Shown one piece after another: positions 4,584 through 19,510 of a DNA stretch of 64,000 bases. Within the stretch, counting starts at the first letter, position 1, and each line of letters opens with the position of its first letter. A program made the translations under genes and the position numbers. Source of the stretch: Hyphomonadaceae bacterium (GTDB taxonomy: Bacteria; Pseudomonadota; Alphaproteobacteria; Caulobacterales; Aquidulcibacteraceae); NCBI GenBank assembly GCA_019753105.1, contig JAIELJ010000009.1, positions 62,001-126,000 of the forward strand, written 5' to 3'. The notes under the pieces were generated by a model. That model was not told where the DNA came from. It did not search any database and saw nothing but the letters and a program-made list of their open reading frames with translations.

Positions 4584-5783
4584 TTACCTGCGGCGCGAAA
4601 CTCCCTGAACCCGGGCGCCATCGACCATGCTGTCTCCAGGAAAGAGGATGATACGGTCACCTTCGTGTAATCCAGACGATACGACGCGATAGTCATCACC
4701 GCCTTCGCCCAACGTGATCGGCGTGAGCCGCGCGCGTCCGCCTCGAACCACAAAGACCGCCCAGCCCTCGCCGTCGCGCACCAATGCATCGGTAGGTGTG
4801 CGGACCGCGTCGGGCTGCTCGCTCAACACCACGCGCGCATCGACGCGAAAGCCGTGGCCGAGCGGCGGAGCGGCTGCAGGGTCGACAAGATGTAGGATGA
4901 CGTTGACGCGCTGCTCCTCAACGCCCAACGCTGAAATGCGCGTGCGCGCATAGGGCTCGATGCGGAAGACACGAGCCGGGATTGGCGTATCGCCGCCCCA
5001 GTTTTCGATCTGGGCTGAAGCCCCGGCCTGCATGCGTACGGCGTCTTGGGTGAGGAACTCGGCCGCGATCTCGATTTGGCTGGTGTCGCCAATCTCAAGC
5101 AGGGGCGCGCCGGCAAGCGCGATCGTCTCACTTTGTTGCAGCACGCGAAGCACGCGACCGGCTGCCGGGCTGGTCACCGGGGTCGCACGGTGCGCGCGCG
5201 CGGACGGAGAACTCGCCGCCGCGCGCGCTCGTGTGACCTCGGCCCGGCGTGCGTTGACCGCCGCGCGGGCTGCGCGCAGGGCTGCATTGGCGGCGTCGAG
5301 CGCTGCCTGTGAAGCAAACTCGCGGGCAAAGAGTGTCGCCACCCGCCTCTGCTCACTCTGCGCCAGCTGCAAATCCGCTTCACTGGCGGCAAGTGCTGCT
5401 TGCGCCGCGGCCACGGCCGCGCTGGCCTCAGCGGCGACGCGCGCGTCCAGCAATGCTGGATCCGCCGGCAGGATAGAGGCGACCACTTGCCCGCGCTCGA
5501 CCGCGTCGCCTGGCTCAAGCTCAATGCGCTGCAGCTCGCCACTGACGGGAGCGGCGATCACAAAGACATCGTGGATGCGTGTCCGCGCTTCGTCGACAAC
5601 CTCGCTGCGCACGGCGCCGCGGTCGATGATGGCGATTTCCACGCTCATCGGCCGAGGCCACGCCAGCCACACCAACAGGAGCGCAACCACAATGCCTGCC
5701 CCCAACCAAACGCGCTGCGCGACGGTGAGCTTGAGTGGCGCTTGCGCCCACGAAATCAGATCTGTGCGGGAGGGCAGGCGCAT
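4584..5783 (-). CDS. HlyD/MacA-type periplasmic adaptor (membrane fusion protein)
   Basis: A 399-residue adaptor that would link an inner-membrane ABC exporter to an outer-membrane channel. One N-terminal membrane segment (about residues 25-43) is followed by a lipoyl-like half (PVSGELQRIELEPGDAVERG), a long alanine-rich helical hairpin (about 115-195) with coiled-coil character, and a second lipoyl half with a beta-barrel domain (SPAAGRVLRVL onward). It is the last gene of a three-gene minus-strand operon, four bases after the permease gene. The hairpin predicts contact with a TolC-like partner not encoded here. The substrate is unknown. Confidence 0.88.
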   Translation of the reverse strand: MRLPSRTDLISWAQAPLKLTVAQRVWLGAGIVVALLLVWLAWPRPMSVEIAIIDRGAVRSEVVDEARTRIHDVFVIAAPVSGELQRIELEPGDAVERGQVVASILPADPALLDARVAAEASAAVAAAQAALAASEADLQLAQSEQRRVATLFAREFASQAALDAANAALRAARAAVNARRAEVTRARAAASSPSARAHRATPVTSPAAGRVLRVLQQSETIALAGAPLLEIGDTSQIEIAAEFLTQDAVRMQAGASAQIENWGGDTPIPARVFRIEPYARTRISALGVEEQRVNVILHLVDPAAAPPLGHGFRVDARVVLSEQPDAVRTPTDALVRDGEGWAVFVVRGGRARLTPITLGEGGDDYRVVSSGLHEGDRIILFPGDSMVDGARVQGVSRRR

Positions 5784-5787
5784 GAAA

Positions 5788-8151
5788 TCAGTCTCTGGCT
5801 TTGAGGACGGCGATCATATCGAGTTTGTCGATGCTGGCGCGCACGGCCATCGCGGCGGTCGCTACGCATCCTAGCGTGAACGCGATGGCGAAGGCGTAGC
5901 CGGCCGGATTGAATACGAATGGGAAGGCGTACATGTCGGTCTGAAACAGCTGCATCAGCCAGACCGATAGAAGGGTACCGAGCGCGAGGCCCGCGGGGAT
6001 GGCGATGAGCGCGAGCGCCATAAGTTCGCCGACAAGAATGTAAGAGACTTCGAGGCGGGTGAAACCGAGGACGCGCAGCGTCGCCAGATCGCGCTCCTGT
6101 TCGGCCAGAGTTATGCGCGCAGCCGAGAAGGCGACGCCGCCCGCCATGATCGCAGCGAAGGCGGCGTAGATGAAGTTCATGACGCCCACACCTTGCTCGA
6201 ACTCGTTGCGCATCGACGCTTCGGCCTGACCGACGAAGCTGACGCCGGCTATGCCTGGAATTTCCGTGATCTCGCGATTGAAGGCCTCGTAGCGCGATGT
6301 GTCCATGCGCAGATGTGCGCCGCTGACGCGGGCCGGCTCGCGCATCAGTCTCGAGAGCGCGGCGATTTCCATGTAAGCGGATGACCCAATCATCGGCTCG
6401 ACGATCGCGGTCACCCGCACATTCGTCGCGATGCGCCGGCCGCGTGTCTGCTCCAGTCGGATTTCATCGCCCGGCTCAGCGCCGAGCTTTTCCGCTAGCG
6501 CGCGCGCCAAGGCGATGCCGCTCGTTGGCGGCGCCATCACTGTTTGACCTCTGCCCACGATTTGGCTGAGGCGCGCTTGTTGCGGCACACCGAAGACGGC
6601 CTCGTGCACGGTGCGGCCATTATGGCGCAAGACGACGTCGTCGAGCCGGAAAGGCTCGGCGTAGAGTACGCCGGGAAGCCGTTCGACTTGATGGAGGACT
6701 GTGCTATCGCGCGCCTCGGTGAAGGTGAGCGTCACATCTTGGCGATTGGCGACGCCGAAATTGACGTCGAGCAGATAGTCCATTTCCGCAGGCATGGTGC
6801 GCGCGACCACAAGCAGCGCGATTGCGAAAGCGACACCCAGCGCGGTGGTCCCGGCGCGGCGGGGAAAACGCACGATGCGGCGCATGATGATCCGCGACTT
6901 GGCGTCGAGGCTGGCTTCAAAGCGGGAAAGCATGGGGCCAGCTGAGAAAAAGGTGGTCGGCCGTGGTGGCGTCAGCGCTTCGGCCGGAGATAGCCGCGCG
7001 GCCTTCAGTACTGAAAAGATGCAGCCCGTGAGCGCCGCCCCGAAACCCGCGGCCCACGCGCCGAGGAAAGTCGCGGGCGAGGCGGAGAACTCAAGCGTCG
7101 GGAAATGATAATAGTCACGGTAAAGGTCGGCGACTGACCTGCCGAGCGCAATGCCGGCCGCCGAGCCAATAAAGGCGCCGAGCGCGGCGAAGATGAGCGC
7201 ACTCTTGGCGTAGTGCCACGCAACCGCTGCATTGGAATAGCCGAACGCCTTCAGCAGGCCGATATTGGAGCGCTCAGTCGCGATCACGCGGCCAAGCGCG
7301 ATGTTTACTAAAAACGCCGCCGTGATCAAAAACAACGCCGGCAGAAAGATCGCCATGGTGGAGAGCTGGCGAAGTTCTTCGCTGAGGAAGCGGTCCGACA
7401 CCATGCGGTCGCGGCCATACGCGCCGATGCCGCCATAAGGCTCGAGAATGCGATCGATGACGGCGATCGTCTCGGCTTGACTGGCGTGGCGGCCAAGCAG
7501 GAACACCGCGTCGTTGAAGGCGCCGTCGAGATCATAGGCGCGCGCCAGCGCTTCACGGTTCATCCAGATTACGCCGAAACGCTTGGCTTGCCGAAAGAGT
7601 TCGCCGGGCGCTGCGACGAAAACAAACTCAGGCGAGTTGGCGATGCCGACAATCCGCAAGCTCTGTCGCCGCCCGTGAATTGTGGCGTCCAGTGTGTCGC
7701 TGGGCCGGAGGTTGTTGGCATCGGCGAAGGCTTGGCTCAGCACTATCTCATCGGCGCGTGCCGGATCCGGCCAGCGCCCGCGGGCGAGCGTCAGGTCATT
7801 GATGCGAGGCCTTCCTGCGATCGGGAGCGAGACAAGACGCGCCGAAGGCGGTTCAGATGCGCCGGGGAGATCGAGCAGCGCAATGCCGCTGACGCGCGTC
7901 TCTACCGTCTGCACGCCGGGCGCTGCCGCAAGCTCACGCGCCACGCGTTCTGGCGCGCGCACGGCGGACGCCGCCAAGTCGGCCATGTTCCGTTCACTGT
8001 AATAGGTTGCGCGTGTGCGCTCCATCGAGCCGCGCATGCCCACAGCCATGACCATGACCGAGAGCCCGCACCCGAGCACGAGCGCCACACCCAGCGCATG
8101 AACGCGCATGCGCCAGACGTCACGAAAGAGCTTCTTGTCCAGCGCGCGCAT
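5788..8151 (-). CDS. MacB/FtsX-family ABC transporter permease with two FtsX domains
   Basis: A 787-residue inner-membrane permease. A first transmembrane helix is followed by a large periplasmic domain, then an FtsX block of three helices (ALFLITAAFLVNIALG onward), a second insertion helix after the linker, another periplasmic domain and a final FtsX block (YAAFAAIMAGGVAFSAARI onward). This doubled architecture is typical of permeases of the MacB superfamily that work with a separate ATPase, which here is the preceding gene three bases upstream. Such exporters often act on lipids, lipoproteins or peptides. Which one applies here cannot be told. Confidence 0.88.
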   Translation of the reverse strand: MRALDKKLFRDVWRMRVHALGVALVLGCGLSVMVMAVGMRGSMERTRATYYSERNMADLAASAVRAPERVARELAAAPGVQTVETRVSGIALLDLPGASEPPSARLVSLPIAGRPRINDLTLARGRWPDPARADEIVLSQAFADANNLRPSDTLDATIHGRRQSLRIVGIANSPEFVFVAAPGELFRQAKRFGVIWMNREALARAYDLDGAFNDAVFLLGRHASQAETIAVIDRILEPYGGIGAYGRDRMVSDRFLSEELRQLSTMAIFLPALFLITAAFLVNIALGRVIATERSNIGLLKAFGYSNAAVAWHYAKSALIFAALGAFIGSAAGIALGRSVADLYRDYYHFPTLEFSASPATFLGAWAAGFGAALTGCIFSVLKAARLSPAEALTPPRPTTFFSAGPMLSRFEASLDAKSRIIMRRIVRFPRRAGTTALGVAFAIALLVVARTMPAEMDYLLDVNFGVANRQDVTLTFTEARDSTVLHQVERLPGVLYAEPFRLDDVVLRHNGRTVHEAVFGVPQQARLSQIVGRGQTVMAPPTSGIALARALAEKLGAEPGDEIRLEQTRGRRIATNVRVTAIVEPMIGSSAYMEIAALSRLMREPARVSGAHLRMDTSRYEAFNREITEIPGIAGVSFVGQAEASMRNEFEQGVGVMNFIYAAFAAIMAGGVAFSAARITLAEQERDLATLRVLGFTRLEVSYILVGELMALALIAIPAGLALGTLLSVWLMQLFQTDMYAFPFVFNPAGYAFAIAFTLGCVATAAMAVRASIDKLDMIAVLKARD

Positions 8152-8154
8152 TGC

Positions 8155-8886
8155 TCACCACACCAGATCTGAAGGTGGAACGCGGTCGGCATTGGTCTCG
8201 ACGCCGCGGACGCGTCCGTCGCCAAAGCGAATGACGCGCGCGCCCATGCGCGCTACATCGGCATTGTGGGTGACGATCAAGGTTGTCGAACCGTAGCGTT
8301 CGTTCACTTCTTGTAGCGCTTCGAGCACCCGGACTCCGGTCTTGACGTCTAGCGCACCTGTGGGTTCGTCGCACAAGAGCACGGCCGGCCTTTTGGCGAT
8401 GGCGCGCGCGACCGCGACACGCTGTTGTTCGCCGCCAGACAATTGCGATGGAAAGTGATCGAGGCGTTGCCCGAGACCAACGAGGTCAAGCGCCTCGGCG
8501 GCTTCCAGCGGATCGTCGGTGATCTCGCTAACGAGTTCGACGTTCTCACGCGCCGTGAGGCTTGGAATGAGATTGTAGAATTGGAAAATGAAGCCGACGT
8601 GCTTGCGGCGATACTGCGTCAGCGCTTGTTCGCTTTGTCCGGTGAGGGGGGCGCCGCGGAAGTGGATCGCGCCCGCGCTCGGACGATCCAATCCGCCCAG
8701 AATATTGAGAAGGGTGGACTTGCCGGAGCCTGATGGGCCCAAGAGCACGATCAATTCGCCGCTGGTGATGTCTAGGTCGACATCAATGAGCGCGCGAACC
8801 GCTGTTTCGCCCGCGCCATAGGTCCTGCAAATGCCGCGCAGGGCGAAAAGCGGCGCAGGCTGATCCGACGGCGCGACGTTGATCAT
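8155..8886 (-). CDS. ABC exporter ATP-binding protein (MacB/LolD-like)
   Basis: The 243-residue ATPase drives the exporter encoded by the next two genes. The Walker A motif GPSGSGKST is at residues 50-58, the signature LSGGEQQRV is near 148, and Walker [12 protein letters not shown] is near 170, with a switch histidine after LIVTH. It is the first gene of the leftward operon (ATPase, permease, adaptor). An FNR/FixK-like site is centred about 40 bases upstream of its start, in the space shared with the divergent P-type ATPase gene, so low-oxygen control is plausible. Confidence 0.93.
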
Positions 8887-8918
8887 GAGGTTTCATGCCC
8901 AGTTTGGTCAGACCATCC

Positions 8919-8932
8919 TTGATCAGGCTCAA
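8919..8932. promoter_or_regulatory. FNR/FixK-like binding site between divergent operons
   Basis: The sequence TTGATCAGGCTCAA matches the FixK consensus TTGA-N6-TCAA exactly and the FNR consensus TTGAT-N4-ATCAA at nine of ten defined bases. It sits between the leftward exporter operon (start 8886) and the rightward P-type ATPase operon (start 9069), so it could control either or both. Two more such sites occur elsewhere in the island. Function is inferred from consensus and position. Confidence 0.65.
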
Positions 8933-9068
8933 GTGACACTGCTTGGTGCTCTGCTCTGGTGTCCTTTCTCTTTCGCGATTTTTGGATGATAGGGGGCGTT
9001 GGCGTGGACCCTTCCGGGATGACCCTGCGCGGGCGTGATCTCACTGAGAGAGCGGGATAACCTGTCCG

Positions 9069-11576
9069 GTGACCGAAGACAGCCTCACGGGCCTAAGCGC
9101 GGCGCAAGCCCGGCAATCGCTTGACCAATGGGGCGCGAACGAACTGCCGAGCCCAGGGCGTCGAGGGCTTGCTAAGATTGCTGTCGAGACCTTGCGTGAG
9201 CCGATGTTCATGCTGCTGCTCGCAGCGGCGGGGCTCTATCTCTTTCTCGGTAGCCTTGGCGAGGGCGTCTTTCTGCTGCTCGGCGCATGCGCGGCGATTG
9301 CGCTTGTTGTCGCACAGGAGGCGCGCAGTGAGCGGGCGCTATCGGCACTACGCGACCTCGCGCAGCCTCACGCCCGTATCGTGCGCGATGGCGTTCAGCG
9401 AAAGCTGGCCTCGCGCGAAATTGTGCCCGGCGACATCATGCTGGTTGGCGAAGGCGATCGCATCTGCGCCGATGCCGTGCTGATCGCAGGCGACATTCTA
9501 AGCGTCGATGAATCGTCTCTGACCGGAGAGTCCGCCCCAGTCTCCAAGCGCTTGGCCCTTGCTGGCGATGTCTTTGCCGAAGTCTTCGCGCCTCCGCACG
9601 AAGCGTCGCCGCTCTTATTCTCAGGAACGCTGGTGGTGCGTGGCCAAGCCGTAGCGCGGGTCACCCACACAGGCGTGCGCTCGGCGCTTGGACGCATTGG
9701 CCGCTCGCTCGCCGAGATAGATCAGCAACCTACGCCGTTGCAGCGGACCGCAGGCAAACTTGTTGGCCTATTGGGTCTCTTTGCGCTCGCTTTCTGTGGC
9801 TTGGTGGTGCTTGCCTTCGGTGTTTTCCTCGGCGACTGGGTCGCCGGCGCGCTTGCTGGAATAACGACAGCGATTGCGTTGGTGCCGGAAGAGTTTCCGA
9901 TGGTGCTCGCCGTCTTTTTGGCGTTGGGCGCTTGGCGGCTCGCGACCCACAAAGTGCTCGTGCGGCGGAGCGCTGTCATCGAGACGCTGGGCGGGGCGAC
10001 GGTTTTGTGTGTCGATAAGACCGGCACTCTGACTCAGAATCACATGCGGCTCGTACGTGTTTGGACAAAAAGCGGCGTTGCCGATGTAGACGCGGCGATG
10101 GGAGAGGAGGGGCGCGCGCTCGTCGCTTGCGCCGCCCTCGCGTCAAGTGTGCGGCCAATAGATCCGATGGATCGCGGCATTCATGAAGCGGCGACGGCGA
10201 TCGGAGTGCCTGTCGCCGTTGGCGAGATCGAGCAGAGCTGGCCGCTTCGCCCCGAAACCATGGCGGTGACGCAGCTTTGGCGTGATGGCGAGGAGCGCGT
10301 GGCGGCCGCAAAGGGCGCGCCGGAAGCCGTGTTTCGTTTGTGCGGCCTCCACGATGCGACGATCACCCGACTGCATGAGATTATCGAAGCTTTCGCGAAG
10401 GATGGATTGCGCGTCCTCGGCGTCGCCAGGTGGCGCGGCGGGACCACGTTTCCGGGGACCCCGGAGAGCGCTTCATTCGAGTTTGTAGGTCTCATCGGAT
10501 TTCTCGACCCGCTGCGTGAAGATGTGCCCGGTGCGTTGGAAGAGGCGCGCAGCGCCGGCATTCAAGTCATCATGATCACTGGCGATCATCCGGCAACTGC
10601 GCTGGCGATCGCGTCCGCGGCCGGTATCGACGTCGCAAGCGGCGTAACGACGGGCACTGCGCTGGCAGAGCTTCCGTTTCCCTCCTTGCGCCAACACATG
10701 CGGCAGGGCCGTGTGTTTGCACGCATTGCCCCAGATCAAAAACTGCTCATCGTCGAAGCGCTCAGAGCCAATGGCGAAGTCGTGGCGATGACAGGCGATG
10801 GCGTAAACGACGCGCCCGCGCTTGAGGCAGCTCATATCGGGATTGCGATGGGCCGAAAAGGCACCGATGTCGCGCGTGAAGCGGCCGACCTTGTGCTTCT
10901 CGATGACGGCTTTGCGTCAATCGTGGGCGGCGTGCGCATGGGTCGGCGCATCTTCGCCAATCTACGCAAGGCCTTAATCTACATCACTGCGATCCATGTC
11001 CCGATTGCCGGGCTCGCGCTCTTGCCGATCCTGCTTGGATTGCCGCAGCTTTTGTTTCCGATGCACGTGGTTTTGCTGGAACTCGCGATTGACCCGACTT
11101 GTGCTCTCGCCTTTGAAGGCGAACGCAGCAGCCGATGCGCCATGAAACGCCCGCCGCGCAAGCCCGACGAAGCGTTGTTTGGCCCGAGGCAATTGCTCAC
11201 CGCTGCTTTGCAGGGTCTCGTCATTTTGGGCGCCGTCCTGGCGCTCTACGTCTACGCTGTGGTTACTCTGACCGTCGAGCAGGCGCGCGGCGCGGCTTTC
11301 ATTGCGCTCGTTGTCGCCAATCTTACTCTGGCGCTGGTGGACGCGGTCGGCGCGGAAGGACGCATCCTCGATCCTGAGCGGCGCATTTACTGGATCATCG
11401 CCGGCGTGCTGATGGTCGTGCTGGCCATGGTAGTCGCGAGCCCCTGGTTAGCGGGGATATTTCACTTGGCGGCGCCGAGCACGCAGTATGTGCTGTTGGC
11501 CCTTGGCGTTGGTTTGGTCAGCGGCGCCTGGCATTGGCCATTGCTGCGCTTCGGGGCATGGAGGAGGCGCACGTGA
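9069..11576 (+). CDS. P-type cation-transporting ATPase (P2-like)
   Basis: An 835-residue ATP-driven cation pump of the inner membrane. It has an N-terminal cation-ATPase domain, the TGES actuator motif at residues 152-155, an ion-site helix with PEEFP at 273-277, the phosphorylation motif DKTGTLT starting at D316, and the hinge TGDGVNDAP at 575-583, followed by C-terminal membrane helices. The order fits P2-type Ca2+/Mg2+-like pumps; the cation is not certain. The start is a GTG. The last codons overlap the next gene (GTGA), and an FNR-like site lies about 140 bases upstream, which suggests oxygen-linked expression. Confidence 0.93.
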   Translation: MTEDSLTGLSAAQARQSLDQWGANELPSPGRRGLAKIAVETLREPMFMLLLAAAGLYLFLGSLGEGVFLLLGACAAIALVVAQEARSERALSALRDLAQPHARIVRDGVQRKLASREIVPGDIMLVGEGDRICADAVLIAGDILSVDESSLTGESAPVSKRLALAGDVFAEVFAPPHEASPLLFSGTLVVRGQAVARVTHTGVRSALGRIGRSLAEIDQQPTPLQRTAGKLVGLLGLFALAFCGLVVLAFGVFLGDWVAGALAGITTAIALVPEEFPMVLAVFLALGAWRLATHKVLVRRSAVIETLGGATVLCVDKTGTLTQNHMRLVRVWTKSGVADVDAAMGEEGRALVACAALASSVRPIDPMDRGIHEAATAIGVPVAVGEIEQSWPLRPETMAVTQLWRDGEERVAAAKGAPEAVFRLCGLHDATITRLHEIIEAFAKDGLRVLGVARWRGGTTFPGTPESASFEFVGLIGFLDPLREDVPGALEEARSAGIQVIMITGDHPATALAIASAAGIDVASGVTTGTALAELPFPSLRQHMRQGRVFARIAPDQKLLIVEALRANGEVVAMTGDGVNDAPALEAAHIGIAMGRKGTDVAREAADLVLLDDGFASIVGGVRMGRRIFANLRKALIYITAIHVPIAGLALLPILLGLPQLLFPMHVVLLELAIDPTCALAFEGERSSRCAMKRPPRKPDEALFGPRQLLTAALQGLVILGAVLALYVYAVVTLTVEQARGAAFIALVVANLTLALVDAVGAEGRILDPERRIYWIIAGVLMVVLAMVVASPWLAGIFHLAAPSTQYVLLALGVGLVSGAWHWPLLRFGAWRRRT

Positions 11577-12937
11577 AGCTCACATTTCGAAGTCTTGGCG
11601 GGGCCGAGACCGTCACCGGATCGAAGCACTTGATCGATGCCGATGGCACGCGCGTTCTGGTCGATTGTGGTCTGTTTCAGGGATTGAAGCACCTGCGTGA
11701 GCGCAATTGGGCGCCGCTCGCCGTGCCGCCGGATTCAATCGATGCGGTCGTCCTCACGCACGCACATCTGGATCACAGTGGCTATCTGCCCAAGCTGGTG
11801 CGCGACGGGTTTCGCGGCGTTGCCCATTGCACCGATGCGACCGCAGCTCTTTGCGACATTCTCCTGAAGGATAGCGCCCAGATCGCCGAGAAGGATGCCG
11901 ACTACGCCAATCGCAAGGGCTTCTCCAAGCACGAGCCGGCGTTGCCGCTTTACACAATGCGCGATGCAGAGCGGGCGCTGAAGCACTTGAAGCCAATGCC
12001 TTTTGACTCAGAATTCGAGATCGCTCGCGATTGTGGTCTGACGTTCCGGCGCGCGGGGCATATTCTTGGCGCTGCCACCGCGGAGGTGAAAATCGGCGGG
12101 ATGACGCTGGCGTTCTCCGGCGATCTCGGCCGCTACAACGATGCGGTCATGTGCGATCCCGAGCCTGTCGCGCATGCGGACTATGTGATCGTTGAATCCA
12201 CTTACGGCGACAGAACGCACGATAAGGGCGACCCCTTGGCGGAACTCGGCGATATCATCGAGCGCACGGTGGAGCGCGGTGGCACCGTAGTTATTCCCGC
12301 ATTCGCCGTGGGGCGTGTGCAGAGTCTGCTTTATCATTTGTGGTTGCTCAAGCGCACCGGACGATTGAGGGCGACGCCAGTGTTTCTAGACAGCCCTATG
12401 GCGATCAGCGCCACCGAGTTGCTGCATGCCCATCCCGATGATCACAAGCTGGACGCTGAAGCCGTCGCAGGCTCCTGCGCGGTCGCCACCTACACGCGTG
12501 ATGTGGAAGCCTCCAAGGCAATCACATCCAACCCAATGCCCAAGGTCGTGATCGCAGGCAGCGGCATGGCGACCGGCGGGCGGATCGTGCACCATATTCG
12601 TACCTTTGCGCCGGATCCTCGAAGCACCATCCTGTTTGCGGGCTACCAAGCTCTGGGTACGCGCGGCGCGCGTCTGCTGGCAGGGGAGACGGAGCTCAAA
12701 ATGTTCGGCGAATGGATTCCGGTCCGCGCTGAGATCGCCAACCTGCCTCAGCTTTCAGCTCACGCCGACGCCGATGAAATCATGCGATGGCTGAGAGGCT
12801 TCGAGCAGGCGCCGCGCCGTCTGTTCATCGTTCATGGCGAGCCCGCGGCGTCGGAGGCGCTGCGCACTCGTGTGGAGCGTGAGCTGAACTGGAAGGCGAG
12901 CGTGGTGGACGCGCTTTTTGGCTACGATCTCTCATGA
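11573..12937 (+). CDS. Beta-CASP metallo-beta-lactamase RNase (YSH1/CPSF73-like)
   Basis: A 454-residue protein with the zinc-site motif HAHLDH (H63, H65, D67, H68), a later GHILGAA histidine, SGDLG aspartate, and the beta-CASP features ESTYGDR, a central IPAFAVGR-QSLL insert, GSGMATGG and the terminal SAHAD and HGE histidines. Family members are RNA endo- or exonucleases. The GTG at 11573 is chosen: GAGGAGG sits five bases upstream and the codon overlaps the previous stop as GTGA, indicating coupled translation. An ATG at 11558 is the alternative. It overlaps the phosphorylase gene downstream by four bases. RNA as substrate is family knowledge, not shown here. Confidence 0.9.
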   Translation: MKLTFRSLGGAETVTGSKHLIDADGTRVLVDCGLFQGLKHLRERNWAPLAVPPDSIDAVVLTHAHLDHSGYLPKLVRDGFRGVAHCTDATAALCDILLKDSAQIAEKDADYANRKGFSKHEPALPLYTMRDAERALKHLKPMPFDSEFEIARDCGLTFRRAGHILGAATAEVKIGGMTLAFSGDLGRYNDAVMCDPEPVAHADYVIVESTYGDRTHDKGDPLAELGDIIERTVERGGTVVIPAFAVGRVQSLLYHLWLLKRTGRLRATPVFLDSPMAISATELLHAHPDDHKLDAEAVAGSCAVATYTRDVEASKAITSNPMPKVVIAGSGMATGGRIVHHIRTFAPDPRSTILFAGYQALGTRGARLLAGETELKMFGEWIPVRAEIANLPQLSAHADADEIMRWLRGFEQAPRRLFIVHGEPAASEALRTRVERELNWKASVVDALFGYDLS

Positions 12938-14439
12938 ACACGGATGCGCATCCGCTCCGCGCGCGACGCCTCCTGCTGCTGACGCAGCATGAGGCGATCG
13001 TGCTGATGCGCACCGACTGCCACGTGTGCAAATCAGAGGGACTTGCCGCGCGCGCGCGTGTGCTGGTGCGGGCCGGGACGCGCGAGGTGATCGCGACGCT
13101 TTATCAGATCGAGAACGAGTGGCTGCATCCCGACGAGGTCGGACTTTCTGAAGCGGCGTGGCAGCGGCTGGGCCTAAAGGCAGGCGACGTGATCGACGTC
13201 GAGAACGCGCCGACGGTGGAATCACTCGCCGATGTGCGACGTCGAATTTATGGCGGCCGTTTAGATGCACGCGCCTTTGGCGAGATCATCACGGACATCG
13301 TCGCCGGCCGCTATGCGGACATCCATCTCGCCACTTTCGTTGCGGCCTGTTCTGCCTTTCCGCTGGATGTTGAGGAGATAACTCATCTCACCGGGGCGAT
13401 GGCTGACGCCGGTGATCGACTTTCGTGGGGTTCGCCAGTTGTCAGCGACAAACATTGCGTTGGTGGTTTGCCGGGGAACCGCACAACCCCGATCGTTGTC
13501 GCGATCGCCGCGAGTTGCGGGCTGATCATGCCCAAGACATCCTCGCGCGCCATCACTTCGCCATCGGGAACGGCTGATGCAATGGAAACGCTCGCGCCTG
13601 TTGACCTCGATGTCACGGCCATGCGGCTTGTGGTCGAGGCTGAAGGTGGGTGCATTGCCTGGGGCGGCGCAGTAAAGCTCTCGCCTGCGGATGATGTGCT
13701 TATCCGCGTCGAGCGGGCGCTTGAGATCGACACTGAAGGCCAATTGATCGCATCGGTCTTGTCAAAGAAGATCGCCGCCGGCGCCACCCATGTTGTTTTG
13801 GATCTTCCGGTTGGACCCACCGCAAAGGTCCGCACAGAGCGCGCCGCAGAAAAACTCACCGCGCACATTTCCGCGGTTGCGTCATCGTTCGGCTTAAAGA
13901 CACATGTTCTGCGAACCGATGGCTCGCAGCCGGTGGGACGCGGCATTGGGCCGGCGCTGGAAGCGCGTGATGTTTTGGCGGTGCTGAAGGGCGAGCCAGA
14001 GGCGCCGCAAGATTTGCGCATGCGCGCTCTAGCGATCGCTGCAGCAGTGCTGGAGCTCTCTGGCGTCGCGCCCGTAGCGCAAGGAGCTGCTCTCGCGGAG
14101 GAGACGCTCGCAAGCGGGCGTGCATGGACCAAATTCCAGCGAATCTGTGCCGCCCAGGGCGGCATGCGCGAGCCGCCGATCGCGCCATTGACGCGTGCTC
14201 TGGCCGCCCCTCATTCGGGTATCGTGACACACATCAACAACCGAAAGATCTCTCGACTCGCCAAATTGGCGGGCGCGCCGGACGATAAGGCGGCTGGCGT
14301 AGAACTTCTGGCGCGCCTTGGCGATCAAGTGACGGCCGGAGCGCCACTCGTGATCGTGCACGCCGAGGCGCCGGGCGAATTGGATTATGCATTGGCGTTC
14401 GCCGCCGCCAGTATGGACATGTTCGAAATAGAGGCTTGA
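12934..14439 (+). CDS. AMP phosphorylase / thymidine phosphorylase family enzyme (long archaeal-like form)
   Basis: The 501-residue length and an N-terminal extension of about 85 residues match archaeal AMP phosphorylases rather than the 440-residue bacterial DeoA. Conserved stretches include the phosphate-binding KHCVGGLPGNR, then PKTSSRAITSPSGTADAMETLA and a C-terminal domain with GDQVTAGAPL. Archaeal AMP phosphorylases convert a nucleoside 5'-monophosphate and phosphate into base and ribose-1,5-bisphosphate. Whether this protein uses NMPs or nucleosides is undecided. It overlaps both neighbours by a few bases, between an RNase-like protein and a PRPP synthetase, which fits ribonucleotide salvage. 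Confidence 0.88.
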   Translation: MNTDAHPLRARRLLLLTQHEAIVLMRTDCHVCKSEGLAARARVLVRAGTREVIATLYQIENEWLHPDEVGLSEAAWQRLGLKAGDVIDVENAPTVESLADVRRRIYGGRLDARAFGEIITDIVAGRYADIHLATFVAACSAFPLDVEEITHLTGAMADAGDRLSWGSPVVSDKHCVGGLPGNRTTPIVVAIAASCGLIMPKTSSRAITSPSGTADAMETLAPVDLDVTAMRLVVEAEGGCIAWGGAVKLSPADDVLIRVERALEIDTEGQLIASVLSKKIAAGATHVVLDLPVGPTAKVRTERAAEKLTAHISAVASSFGLKTHVLRTDGSQPVGRGIGPALEARDVLAVLKGEPEAPQDLRMRALAIAAAVLELSGVAPVAQGAALAEETLASGRAWTKFQRICAAQGGMREPPIAPLTRALAAPHSGIVTHINNRKISRLAKLAGAPDDKAAGVELLARLGDQVTAGAPLVIVHAEAPGELDYALAFAAASMDMFEIEA

Positions 14440-14444
14440 GCGCG

Positions 14445-15317
14445 ATGCGTGTGATCTTGCCGATGCCGGGCAACGAGGCGATGGCGGGTGCGCTTTCGGA
14501 GCGTCTTGACGCTGAATTAGGTGTTCTCGAGTGGCGGCGCTTTCCCGACTCTGAAGCCTATGTTCGCATTGCAAGCGAGGTGCGGGGAAAGCGCGTCCAT
14601 ATCGTTTGCACATTGGCAAATCCGGATCCGCAAATGCTGACGCTGGTCTTTGCGGCGGCCGCCGCTCGTGAGTGCGGCGCAGAGAGCGTGCATCTGGTTG
14701 CGCCTTATCTTGCCTATATGCGTCAGGATAGGCGCTTTAATGCTGGCGAGGCGCTGTCGGCGACACACTTTGCGCGCCTGCTCTCGCAGAACTTCGATAG
14801 CCTGGTGACCATCGATCCGCATCTTCATCGCATAAGCAGTCTGGACGCGTTATTCTCGATTCCCACGCATGTAGGCGCCGCTGCGCCGCTACTTGGCGAG
14901 TGGATTGCGCAGAACGTCGACGCACCTTTGGTTATCGGGCCGGATCAAGAAAGCGAACAATGGGCAGCGGAGGTCGCGAGAAGCGCGGGCGCGCCACATG
15001 TGGTCGCGAGCAAACTGAGGATCGGTGATGAACAAGTGCGCGTCGAACTGCCAGACTTGAGAGCGTGGAGCGGCCGGCGGCCAGTATTGACCGACGACAT
15101 AGTCTCTTCCGGGCGGACCATGATTGAAGCATCTCGTGTGTTGGCGGCGCGCGGAATGGCAAAGCCCTATTGCCTGGCCATCCACGCCGTTTTCGCTCCA
15201 GGCGCCTTCGATCATCTCGCCGAGTTGTCCGAGCGCGTGGTGACGACCGATACGATCGCTCATCCATCCAACGCCATCTCTATCGTGCACACGCTGGCGA
15301 GATTGATCGCATCCTAG
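14445..15317 (+). CDS. Ribose-phosphate pyrophosphokinase (short form)
   Basis: PRPP synthetase makes 5-phosphoribosyl diphosphate from ribose 5-phosphate and ATP. The 290-residue protein carries the family landmarks: EWRRFPDSEAYVRI near the N-terminus, a DPHLHR loop, and the PRPP-binding VLTDDIVSSGRTM with D217 and D218. It is about 20-30 residues shorter than the housekeeping enzyme and has DPHLHR, as in archaeal and class II/III types, so it is probably a specialised paralogue. ATG 14445 is chosen; an in-frame TTG at 14436 overlapping the previous stop is possible. It ends the core island operon. Confidence 0.9.
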   Translation: MRVILPMPGNEAMAGALSERLDAELGVLEWRRFPDSEAYVRIASEVRGKRVHIVCTLANPDPQMLTLVFAAAAARECGAESVHLVAPYLAYMRQDRRFNAGEALSATHFARLLSQNFDSLVTIDPHLHRISSLDALFSIPTHVGAAAPLLGEWIAQNVDAPLVIGPDQESEQWAAEVARSAGAPHVVASKLRIGDEQVRVELPDLRAWSGRRPVLTDDIVSSGRTMIEASRVLAARGMAKPYCLAIHAVFAPGAFDHLAELSERVVTTDTIAHPSNAISIVHTLARLIAS

Positions 15318-15325
15318 CGTGGTTC

Positions 15326-15937
15326 ATGGGTCGCCTGGCGACGATGAGAGCACCCCGGGGATGATTAAGGGCCGAGGCAGTTGTTGACCTCCAGGGCGGC
15401 GCCTCAATCGAACTCCGGCTTGATGAGTTCAGTCGACTCTTCGATCCATTTGACCAATTTCCGATCCCGACGCGCGATCTCGCCAGGAGTGCCGAAGATT
15501 TCATAGTCAGCTGTGCCCGAGAGCTACCGAGAGGCCAAGCATTGCGCATCGTCGTTCATCTGTCGCAAGGCGAGGCGCAGAGCGCCACCGCGGCGGGACT
15601 AGCGGACGCAGTGCGGCGTAGCTTCAGCTATCGCGCCGAGCGCGTGAGAAGTGATCTCCACGATATGTTTCGCATTGGACGCCTGTCGCTGCTTATCGGT
15701 TTGGCGGGTTGGGCGGTTGCGTGTTGGGTGGGAGATTGGTGAGCGGTGTGTTCGGGCTTGGTGACGTCTCGAGCTTCTTTGCCGAGGGGCTCATTATCCT
15801 CGGCTGGGTCGCCAACTGGCGTCCGATCGAGGTCTTCCTCTACGATTGGTGGCCACTGGCCGCAAAGGCGACAATTGTATCTGCGCCTTGCCGAGGCAAA
15901 AGTGGAGGTTCGGTCGCTGCGCGAGGAAGAGGTCTAG
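15326..15937 (+). pseudogene. Decayed integral membrane protein gene (stop codon plus two frameshifts)
   Basis: A continuous protein can be read only by changing frame. From ATG 15326 or 15344 the frame hits TGA at 15362. The same frame then reads on as a soluble part (LDEFSRLF..., SAEDFIVSCARELPRG) and a first membrane helix until TGA near 15742. The second helix with EEGLIILGWVANWRPIE-like sequence continues in another frame, and the tail YLRLAEAKVEVR returns to the original frame before TAG at 15937. The C-terminal pattern resembles small membrane proteins I have seen annotated only as hypothetical. The gene follows the PRPP synthetase directly. Sequencing error is an alternative to decay. 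Confidence 0.65.
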
Positions 15938-17838: not shown

Positions 17839-18141
17839 CTATTGTCGCTTCCCGGCGTGGGTCACAGCATAGCCGAGCAACCCAACGGCGGCTGCGGCGA
17901 GCGCCGCTGTGGCGATCGGGTGTTCGCGCACCTCTTCGCCGGCTGCTTTGGCGAGGTTCGTCGATTGCTTCTTGATCTTCTCGGCGAGCTTGGACGCTGA
18001 ATGCACGAAGTCTTGCGCTGACTCAGAAATCGCGTCATCGCCGTGGTCACCAATGTTCTTCGTCATTCTGCCCAGCGCTTTCACCACGACCTCGTAATCG
18101 TCGGACAACTCGGTGATCAGTTGTTTTGCTGCGTTCGGCAT
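17839..18141 (-). CDS. DUF883/ElaB-YqjD-like membrane-anchored protein
   Basis: A 100-residue protein made of an amphipathic, charged helical part (about residues 1-70, with heptad-like spacing in SASKLAEKIKKQSTN) and a C-terminal hydrophobic helix (ATAALAAAAVGLLGYAVTHA). Proteins of this shape in enterobacteria (ElaB, YqjD) are tail-anchored in the inner membrane, rise in stationary phase and bind ribosomes; the same role here is inference. A perfect FNR consensus site is centred 60 bases upstream of the start at 18141. Confidence 0.8.
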   Translation of the reverse strand: MPNAAKQLITELSDDYEVVVKALGRMTKNIGDHGDDAISESAQDFVHSASKLAEKIKKQSTNLAKAAGEEVREHPIATAALAAAAVGLLGYAVTHAGKRQ

Positions 18142-18194: not shown

Positions 18195-18208
18195 TTGATG
18201 CGGATCAA
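18195..18208. promoter_or_regulatory. Perfect FNR-type binding site
   Basis: TTGATGCGGATCAA matches the FNR consensus TTGAT-N4-ATCAA at all ten defined bases. It lies 54 bases before the leftward DUF883-like gene and about 100 bases before a possible rightward 40-codon frame. It is the strongest of the three sites in this island and supports the oxygen-responsive reading of the other two. Confidence 0.75.
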
Positions 18209-18434: not shown

Positions 18435-18715
18435 AGCGAAAGCGCTCACGCAATGGTCCTTGACGGCGTTCTCGAGCCGACCCTTTAGATTAGAATGTCC
18501 GTTATCGGTCGGTCGTGAACCAATGACCGCTTCTGGGATTCATCGGCAAGACGTGTCGTGCTTCGGGTGTCCCCTGGCCTGAGCCACCGGGCGTTCCACG
18601 CCGTCTAGCTCCAGCCTTACGCAGTCCACGCGCAACGCAGGCAGCGCCGGGTTTCTCGGTGGCCCCATAAGCCGATCTGGTGGGTTACGGTTTTACCCAA
18701 CCAAGAAGGCGTAAG

Positions 18716-19510
18716 ATGCACCAAATTCAACGCGGCACCGGGCCGAAGCTGCTGCTCATTCATGGCCTTGGCGGAAGTTGGCAATCGTGGAGCACGATCC
18801 TTGACGCGCTAAGCGCACAGCGGACCGTTATCGCCATCGATCTTCCCGGACATGGCGCCACGCCAGCAGAAGGCGATAGCGGAACCTTCATCGGCCTCGT
18901 CGGCAACGTCGAGCGATACATCGCCGACAATGATCTAACTGGGATCGACGTTGTCGGCAGCTCGATGGGCGCGCGCATCGCCCTCGAACTTGCGCGTCGC
19001 GGCCGCGTCGGCAACGTCGTCGCACTGGATCCAGGCGGCTTCTGGCGCGGCTGGGAACGAACCTTCTTCAAAGTCACCATCGGGCTGTCGGGACGATTGT
19101 TGCGCATGATCCGGCCGCTACTGCCGACGCTTAGCCGTTATGCCGCTACGCGCACGGCGTTGCTGGCACAATTGTCTGTGCGGCCATGGGCGCTCGATCC
19201 GAATGTCGTAGCGACCGAACTGACGGGTCTCAGCAAGACGCCGACGTTCGCCGCGTTGGTTGAAGATCTTGCCACTGGTCTGGAGCAGACCGGGCCAGCC
19301 GAGGAATCCACTGGTCGCGTCGTGATCGGGTGGGGCAGGCAGGATCGGCTTTGCCTGCCGCGCCAAGCGGCGCGTGCCAAAGCAGCGTTCCCTTCGGCAG
19401 ATTTGCACTGGTTCGAGTCCAGCGGCCATTTCCCGGGTTGGGATATGCCCGACGAGACAATCGCGGTCGTTTTAGACGCAACCCAGCGCCGCTCTAATGT
19501 CGATCGCTGA
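18716..19510 (+). CDS. Alpha/beta hydrolase
   Basis: A 264-residue serine hydrolase of the alpha/beta fold. It shows the oxyanion-hole motif HGLGG at residues 16-20, the strand-turn IDLPGHG at 41-47, the nucleophile elbow GSSMG with S83, and a C-terminal SSGHFPGWD supplying the catalytic histidine. A cap region follows GGFWRGW. The substrate is unknown. ATG 18716 is preferred because AAGAAGG lies upstream and the protein then starts just before the first strand; an in-frame start 12 codons earlier adds an unlikely basic tail. It stands alone inside the island. Confidence 0.9.
   Translation: MHQIQRGTGPKLLLIHGLGGSWQSWSTILDALSAQRTVIAIDLPGHGATPAEGDSGTFIGLVGNVERYIADNDLTGIDVVGSSMGARIALELARRGRVGNVVALDPGGFWRGWERTFFKVTIGLSGRLLRMIRPLLPTLSRYAATRTALLAQLSVRPWALDPNVVATELTGLSKTPTFAALVEDLATGLEQTGPAEESTGRVVIGWGRQDRLCLPRQAARAKAAFPSADLHWFESSGHFPGWDMPDETIAVVLDATQRRSNVDR

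Follow-up and report, generated by a model that had tools for sequence, protein, structure and literature searches.

The window analysed here is a stretch of 64,000 nucleotides from the genome of a Hyphomonadaceae bacterium (GenBank assembly GCA_019753105.1, contig JAIELJ010000009.1, positions 62,001 to 126,000 of the forward strand). Between 9069 and 15317 it carries an operon of four genes, three of which are considered below as a candidate module for the use of nucleotides. These are the gene of the beta-CASP type (MBL), a long phosphorylase annotated as thymidine phosphorylase (TP) and a protein resembling the synthetases of 5-phosphoribosyl 1-diphosphate (PRPP), referred to as PRPS*. Ribose-1,5-bisphosphate is abbreviated R15P, ribose-5-phosphate R5P, nucleoside monophosphate NMP and phosphoketolase XFP; C-numbers are contigs of the window's genome and L-numbers are loci.

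9069-11576, + strand: type II (cation) P-type ATPase, leading the operon; GTG start; assigned by Pfam and NCBIfam
11558-12937, + strand: MBL-fold/beta-CASP RNA metallo-hydrolase with RMMBL domain; ATG start, in-frame TTG at 11534; assigned by Pfam, NCBIfam and solved structures
12934-14439, + strand: TP, proposed NMP phosphorylase yielding R15P; from sequence families, fold and relatives fused to PhnN
14436-15317, + strand: PRPS*, subfamily PRK07199, proposed R15P-using enzyme; TTG start, in-frame ATG at 14445

All four open reading frames were found on the + strand where the initial annotation had placed them, and the window sequence confirmed their overlaps, of 19 nt between the ATPase and MBL and of 4 nt both between MBL and TP and between TP and PRPS*. 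The Pfam and NCBIfam families are as first guessed for all four products, and matches to solved structures agree for MBL, TP and PRPS*. The operon is real, and MBL, TP and PRPS* recur together. No sigma-70-type promoter was found by scanning 8850-15800.

Linkage of the phosphorylase and the PRPP synthetase-like protein

The distribution of the genes was followed in three sets: 200 genomes of the phylum (the phylum sample); 385 genomes from the window's class (the class sample; thresholds E <= 1e-70 for PRPS* and E <= 1e-100 for TP; six of its TP genomes are common with the phylum sample); and the best 80 of 586 matches to the TP alignment in named genomes, called the named loci, where neighbours were counted within 10 kb. 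Open reading frames in the relatives' loci were called by scoring on amino-acid use. Many named loci end at contig ends, so that their neighbour counts are lower bounds.

In the phylum sample, TP was over its cut-off in 24 of the 200 genomes and PRPS* (NF005537) in the identical 24, the lowest-scoring member reaching 322.8 bits and the next protein 163.8. Since these genomes span 16 genera, they do not amount to 24 independent cases. The match was less than perfect in the class sample, where 31 of 32 genomes with PRPS* also have TP (4.9 expected), or 25 of 26 once the six common genomes are removed. Both genes are neighbours in 26 of these 31 genomes, and PRPS* is found in 72 of the 80 named loci, once as a fragment. 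The pairing of TP with PRPS* exceeds chance. In the phylum loci, MBL accompanies 11 of the 25 TP genes, and it is present in 64 of the 80 named loci. The co-occurrence of the trio, which the initial annotation had named as a check, is upheld for TP and PRPS*, MBL being commonly but not always with them. By eye, TP adjoins dnaK/dnaJ-like genes in two loci that have no PRPS* (L153 and L169).

The P-type ATPase was rejected as a part of the module. A P-type ATPase of any kind is present in 37 of the 80 named loci, and only 5 of the 80 score above 300 bits against that of the window. It is a loose neighbour, not a conserved member of the module.

Families and folds of the three enzymes and the altered loop of PRPS*

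The product of 11558-12937 contains the MBL, beta-CASP and RMMBL domains together with the HxHxDH motif, and its closest solved structure is the ribonuclease TTHA0252. The same motif is present in 61 of 61 full-length relatives from the named loci. From its family, it is a putative RNase that may help to release nucleotides. RNase domains and motifs that fit the initial annotation are in place, and the counts given above show that the gene is not an obligatory part of the module.

TP belongs to the bacterial long thymidine phosphorylase family, with 663 bits against NF003338 (cut-off 434) and 577 against TIGR02645 (434.6), and scores only 152 bits against the thymidine phosphorylase family TIGR02643. 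A structure model built from 19 sequences (mean pLDDT 92) fits best to the AMP phosphorylase 4ga5, with TM 0.91/0.93 over 499 columns and with the N-terminal domain included in the fold. The shorter nucleoside phosphorylases reach TM 0.68-0.73 by query length and 0.77-0.83 by target length. Sequence scores and fold support the AMP-phosphorylase-like identity first proposed, and TP would work like an AMP phosphorylase without being filed as a member of the AMP phosphorylase family TIGR03327. A PF00591 search of the window's genome returned TP, a cut second TP copy at C18 and one other protein, which is probably TrpD from its length and score.

In three class-sample genomes, TP is fused with a PhnN domain as one protein (192, 164 and 179 bits; cut-off 156):

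L165:7638-9674, PhnN-phosphorylase fusion
L164:6478-8529, PhnN-phosphorylase fusion
L167:6631-8736, PhnN-phosphorylase fusion

In a fourth genome, a PhnN gene (185 bits) adjoins TP. The gene nadC adjoins the fusion of L164, which is the one of the three whose neighbours were covered by the nadC scan. A possible phosphoribosyltransferase-like gene was seen by eye beside PhnN and TP in G351 (L156:9757-10434, - strand). Since PhnN phosphorylates R15P, its fusion with TP points to R15P as the product of the phosphorylase. R15P is thus the likely TP product, and the fusion is the strongest, though indirect, argument for phosphorolysis of NMPs.

PRPS* has the family scores of a PRPP synthetase (388 bits against NF005537, above 322, and 188 against TIGR01251, above 113). 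Its model (pLDDT 94.7) matches PRPP synthetases in the 50 best PDB matches listed, with TM of about 0.9 to the synthetase of T. volcanium. The residues K193, R195, D170, F36, D38, E40, R96 and Q97 are invariant in a 19-row alignment that includes the canonical paralogue. The archaeal PRPP synthetases of M. jannaschii (1u9y) and T. volcanium (3mbi) resemble it in fold (TM 0.86-0.92), catalytic Lys/Arg and ATP-site residues. They differ by their canonical diphosphate loop, where PRPS* has DxES or DxEA followed by W.

This loop holds the terminal phosphate in PRPP synthetases. In the window's PRPS*, GPDQESEQW replaces the SPDxGG loop, and the DxGG signature is lost. The motif DxE(S/A)xxW is present in 26 of 26 PRPS* of the phylum sample, the window's protein and its C18 copy included (24 ES, 2 EA), and in 71 of the 72 PRPS* hits of the named loci, the exception being a 122-residue fragment (L141). 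DxGG was found in both canonical PRPS paralogues checked. A canonical PRPS (C9) and a second PRPS* (C18) are also encoded by the window's genome. The diphosphate loop being replaced in a separate PRPS subfamily, plain PRPP synthesis by PRPS* is doubtful. PRPS* has lost the loop for the terminal phosphate and depends on a supposed producer of R15P, which suggests R15P as its substrate. The reaction would perhaps be R15P + AMP -> R5P + ADP, that is, the reverse PRPS reaction minus the terminal phosphate. The role of the diphosphate loop in PRPP synthetases is named in PMC12238573.

Phosphoketolase neighbours, probable oxygen control and mobility

The initial annotation held that neither R15P isomerase nor RuBisCO is present at the locus, and neither TIGR00511 nor PF00016 gave a match in the window's genome. 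R15P isomerase was rejected as an outlet more broadly, being over cut-off in none of the 24 TP genomes; 15 of the 24 have sub-threshold relatives, which are presumably of MtnA type. PhnN was rejected as a general outlet for R15P, as it is over cut-off in only 4 of the 24.

XFP is found in 34 of the 80 named loci, acetate kinase (AckA) in 15 and a GAPDH-like protein in 15. Of these 34 XFPs, 27 share the strand of TP and lie no more than 2.5 kb from it, where chance would give about 0.07 for an assumed mean genome size of 3.5 Mb. The remaining 7 lie on the opposite strand, 5-9 kb away. Six of these 7 belong to a single near-identical island, and leaving this island out gives XFP in 28 of 74 named loci. 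The orders PRPS-XFP-MBL-TP, MBL-TP-PRPS and TP-AckA-XFP-PRPS recur. Two XFP families, one canonical and one divergent and about 22% identical, stand beside TP, and the divergent one may act on another substrate. Two plasmid records call members of this divergent family (L053:14842-17241 and relatives) xylulose 5-phosphate 3-epimerase. Two GAPDH-like proteins were scanned and are type II GAPDH; one comes from C18, about 14 kb from PRPS*.

In the window's genome, AckA is present and XFP is seen only as a fragment. The start of C14 (L144:1-1572) codes for residues 2-121 of a divergent XFP that runs off the contig end, with AckA upstream, and the start of C18 (L060:1-1202) carries the end of a TP gene followed by PRPS*. 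A second, paralogous set AckA-XFP-(gap)-TP-PRPS* is therefore probable, in which C14 and C18 would be adjacent. The missing outlet is probably XFP with acetate kinase. The idea of a different outlet is thus retained, and its end point is changed from PRPP to phosphoketolase and acetate kinase.

The following predicted regulatory site lies upstream of the operon:

8919-8932, + strand: FNR/FixK-type box TTGATCAGGCTCAA, fitting the FixK2 consensus

The box is located in a divergent intergenic region and is separated from the start codon of the P-type ATPase by 136 nt. On the - strand, an ABC ATPase gene has its start at 8886, so that the box could serve either side. By inspection, that gene belongs to an exporter-like trio (adaptor, FtsX-like permease, ABC ATPase; 4584-8886, - strand) divergent from the operon, and three gene clusters of the window that appear to be this trio (c12, c18, c19) are found again close to the module in L055 and L059. 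The consensus, TTGA/C-N6-T/GCAA (PMC9104804), is found 9 times in the window, 4.6 being expected by chance, and only its position makes the 8919-8932 box notable. A perfect FNR box, TTGATGCGGATCAA, lies at 18195-18208 between the genes 17839-18141 (- strand) and 18680-19510 (+ strand). Of the 80 named loci, 11 contain the exact TTGAT-N4-ATCAA, against at most 2 for 19 permuted palindromes.

In Bradyrhizobium diazoefficiens, bll3115 (MBL), bll3116 (PRPS), bll3117 (TP) and bll2518 (phosphoketolase) were reported to increase in microoxia as protein and RNA (PMC6515984). In a fixK2 mutant, bll3117, bll3115, bll2518 and bll2517 (acetate kinase) were decreased 6.6- to 30.6-fold, and FixK2 boxes precede both operons, bll3116 being given there only as an operon member (PMC9104804). 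A putative phosphoketolase of Rhodopseudomonas palustris is among the predicted FixK targets (PMC3050613). The genes bll3117-3116-3115 (TP-PRPS-MBL) and bll2518-2517 (XFP-AckA) are those of the module; they differ in that the gene order is not that of the window and XFP-AckA forms a separate operon (PMC6515984, PMC9104804). Together with the box at 8919-8932 and the 11 loci, these data support the FNR-like, low-oxygen control first suggested. The module is probably oxygen-controlled, as published expression indicates for Bradyrhizobium and as would hold by extension for the window.

The module is also found on mobile DNA. A TP relative is present in 116 plasmid records (E <= 1e-60), of which 46 are typed conjugative. 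An island of about 20-21 kb that contains MBL-TP-PRPS*, GAPDH and XFP is 98.6-99.5% identical in six loci (L122, L125, L128, L129, L132 and L134) from at least four genera, the records being those of Burkholderiales, Pigmentiphaga, Hydrogenophaga, Pseudomonas and Achromobacter. Megablast of the TP-PRPS stretch of L129 gave no match in E. coli genomes.

A proposed pentose bisphosphate module

Taken together, we lean slightly towards a seemingly widespread bacterial pentose-bisphosphate module in which nucleotides, probably from RNA, serve as an energy reserve at low oxygen. The beta-CASP RNase would help to free nucleotides, and TP would cleave NMPs with phosphate to base and R15P, as its sequence, its fold and the PhnN fusions suggest. 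PRPS* would then convert R15P to R5P, the favoured route being transfer of the C1 phosphoryl of R15P to AMP giving ADP. Ordinary isomerases would turn R5P into xylulose-5-phosphate, from which XFP and acetate kinase, often encoded in the same operon or a sister cluster, would yield acetate, glyceraldehyde-3-phosphate and ATP. Regulators of the FNR/FixK type would switch the module on at low oxygen. The linkage, the co-occurrence, the replaced motif and the PhnN fusions are shown by the sequences, and expression is published for a relative; all of the reactions, the origin of the nucleotides from RNA and the way in which PRPS* runs are inferences.

Several observations weigh against this proposal. 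The 80 named loci are the best-scoring of 586 matches and not a random sample. In the class sample, TP and PRPS* lie on different contigs in 5 of 31 genomes (two in family f101, three in fragmented assemblies), one f101 genome has PRPS* without TP, and 28 of the 59 genomes with TP are without PRPS*. Among the 19 of these 28 loci that were read, 7 have MBL beside TP, 3 the PhnN fusion, 1 a PhnN neighbour and 8 none of these. TP, with 468 bits, stays below the equivalog cut-off of 535 of TIGR03327, and transfer of a phosphoryl group from a sugar 1-phosphate to AMP is somewhat uphill. Of 298 module genes, many of which are internal to operons, only 12 have a box with at most one mismatch in the 400 bp upstream, about 1% being expected for each. 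Metal-related genes lie near the plasmid-borne copies in 4 of 4 plasmid regions read. PMC6515984 gives the bll3115-3117 trio no mark as FixK2 target or as induced in bacteroids. The window's genome was scored as lacking XFP in the PF03894 search, which a gene cut by the assembly gap at the end of C14 would explain. Finally, the enrichment of XFP at genome level is moderate (8 of 24 TP genomes versus 23 of 176 in the phylum sample, p 0.017) and RuBisCO is present in 14 of the 24 phylum-sample TP genomes, so that outlets probably differ between lineages.

A bolder form of the proposal can be held tentatively at best. According to it, PRPS* would be a new R15P:AMP (or ADP) phosphotransferase that saves the energy of phosphorolysis, the module would be a third pentose bisphosphate pathway spread by plasmids and islands, and Pseudomonadota would respond to oxygen loss by breaking their own RNA down to acetate and bases in a fermentation.

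A rather unlikely alternative is that R15P is recycled to PRPP, PRPS* replacing PhnN and the PRPP serving NAD or nucleotide synthesis with no fermentation. Such a branch is likely in the relatives with PhnN-TP fusions, one of which stands beside nadC, and the scarcity of PhnN in TP genomes means that a replacement would be needed if this route were used. Nevertheless, the diphosphate loop for PRPP binding is changed in the very PRPS* that is linked to TP, and the catabolic XFP, AckA and GAPDH recur in the clusters. It is improbable that the genes perform ordinary salvage through a pyrimidine nucleoside phosphorylase and a normal PRPP synthetase, the name thymidine phosphorylase being right. 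Database names agree with this, and no separate thymidine phosphorylase was seen in the PF00591 search of the window's genome; on the contrary, TP is nearest to AMP phosphorylase in sequence and fold and is fused to PhnN in relatives, and PRPS* is tied to TP while a separate canonical PRPS exists.

We give very little credence to PRPS* being a catalytically dead regulatory subunit like PRPSAP: active-site loops are also altered in PRPSAP2, yet this protein has lost D171, K194 and R196, which in human PRPS1 bind metal, contact ATP and contact R5P (PMC12238573), whereas the corresponding residues of PRPS*, D170, K193 and R195, do not vary in the 19-row alignment. It is just as hard to credit that the genes travel together only as passengers of plasmids and of islands for stress or metal resistance, with no shared pathway; the plasmid records, the metal-related genes and the near-identical island speak for it, and the recurrent gene orders in many genera, the two XFP families beside TP-PRPS* and the FixK2 dependence of two separate Bradyrhizobium operons (PMC9104804) against it.

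The proposed pentose-bisphosphate module has relatives among known systems. It shares a long phosphorylase, by wider family and fold, with the archaeal carboxylating pentose bisphosphate pathway of Thermococcus kodakarensis, which comprises AMP phosphorylase, R15P isomerase and form III RuBisCO (PMC12628685). The module differs by having PRPS* and phosphoketolase; none of the 24 TP genomes has an R15P isomerase over cut-off, and RuBisCO gave no match in the genome of the window. A haloarchaeal non-carboxylating pentose bisphosphate pathway reportedly routes nucleoside ribose without carboxylation, as the title of that work puts it, and the module is similar to it at that level. The ribose 1,5-bisphosphokinase PhnN (TIGR02322) handles R15P and is fused to TP in the three relatives; it is guanylate-kinase-like, of another family than PRPS*, and is not over cut-off in 20 of 24 TP genomes. 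A search of the literature, with most subscription papers outside it, found none that connects bacterial phosphoketolase with either AMP phosphorylase or R15P.

If the proposal is true, many genes annotated as thymidine phosphorylase or ribose-phosphate pyrophosphokinase would be misnamed, and ordinary proteobacteria would own a pentose bisphosphate pathway that has a separate outlet, RNA being a usable anoxic energy store. It would also provide an example, open to testing, of how a PRPP synthetase can acquire a new reaction through the loss of its diphosphate loop, and a function for part of the low-oxygen FixK2 regulon of Bradyrhizobium.

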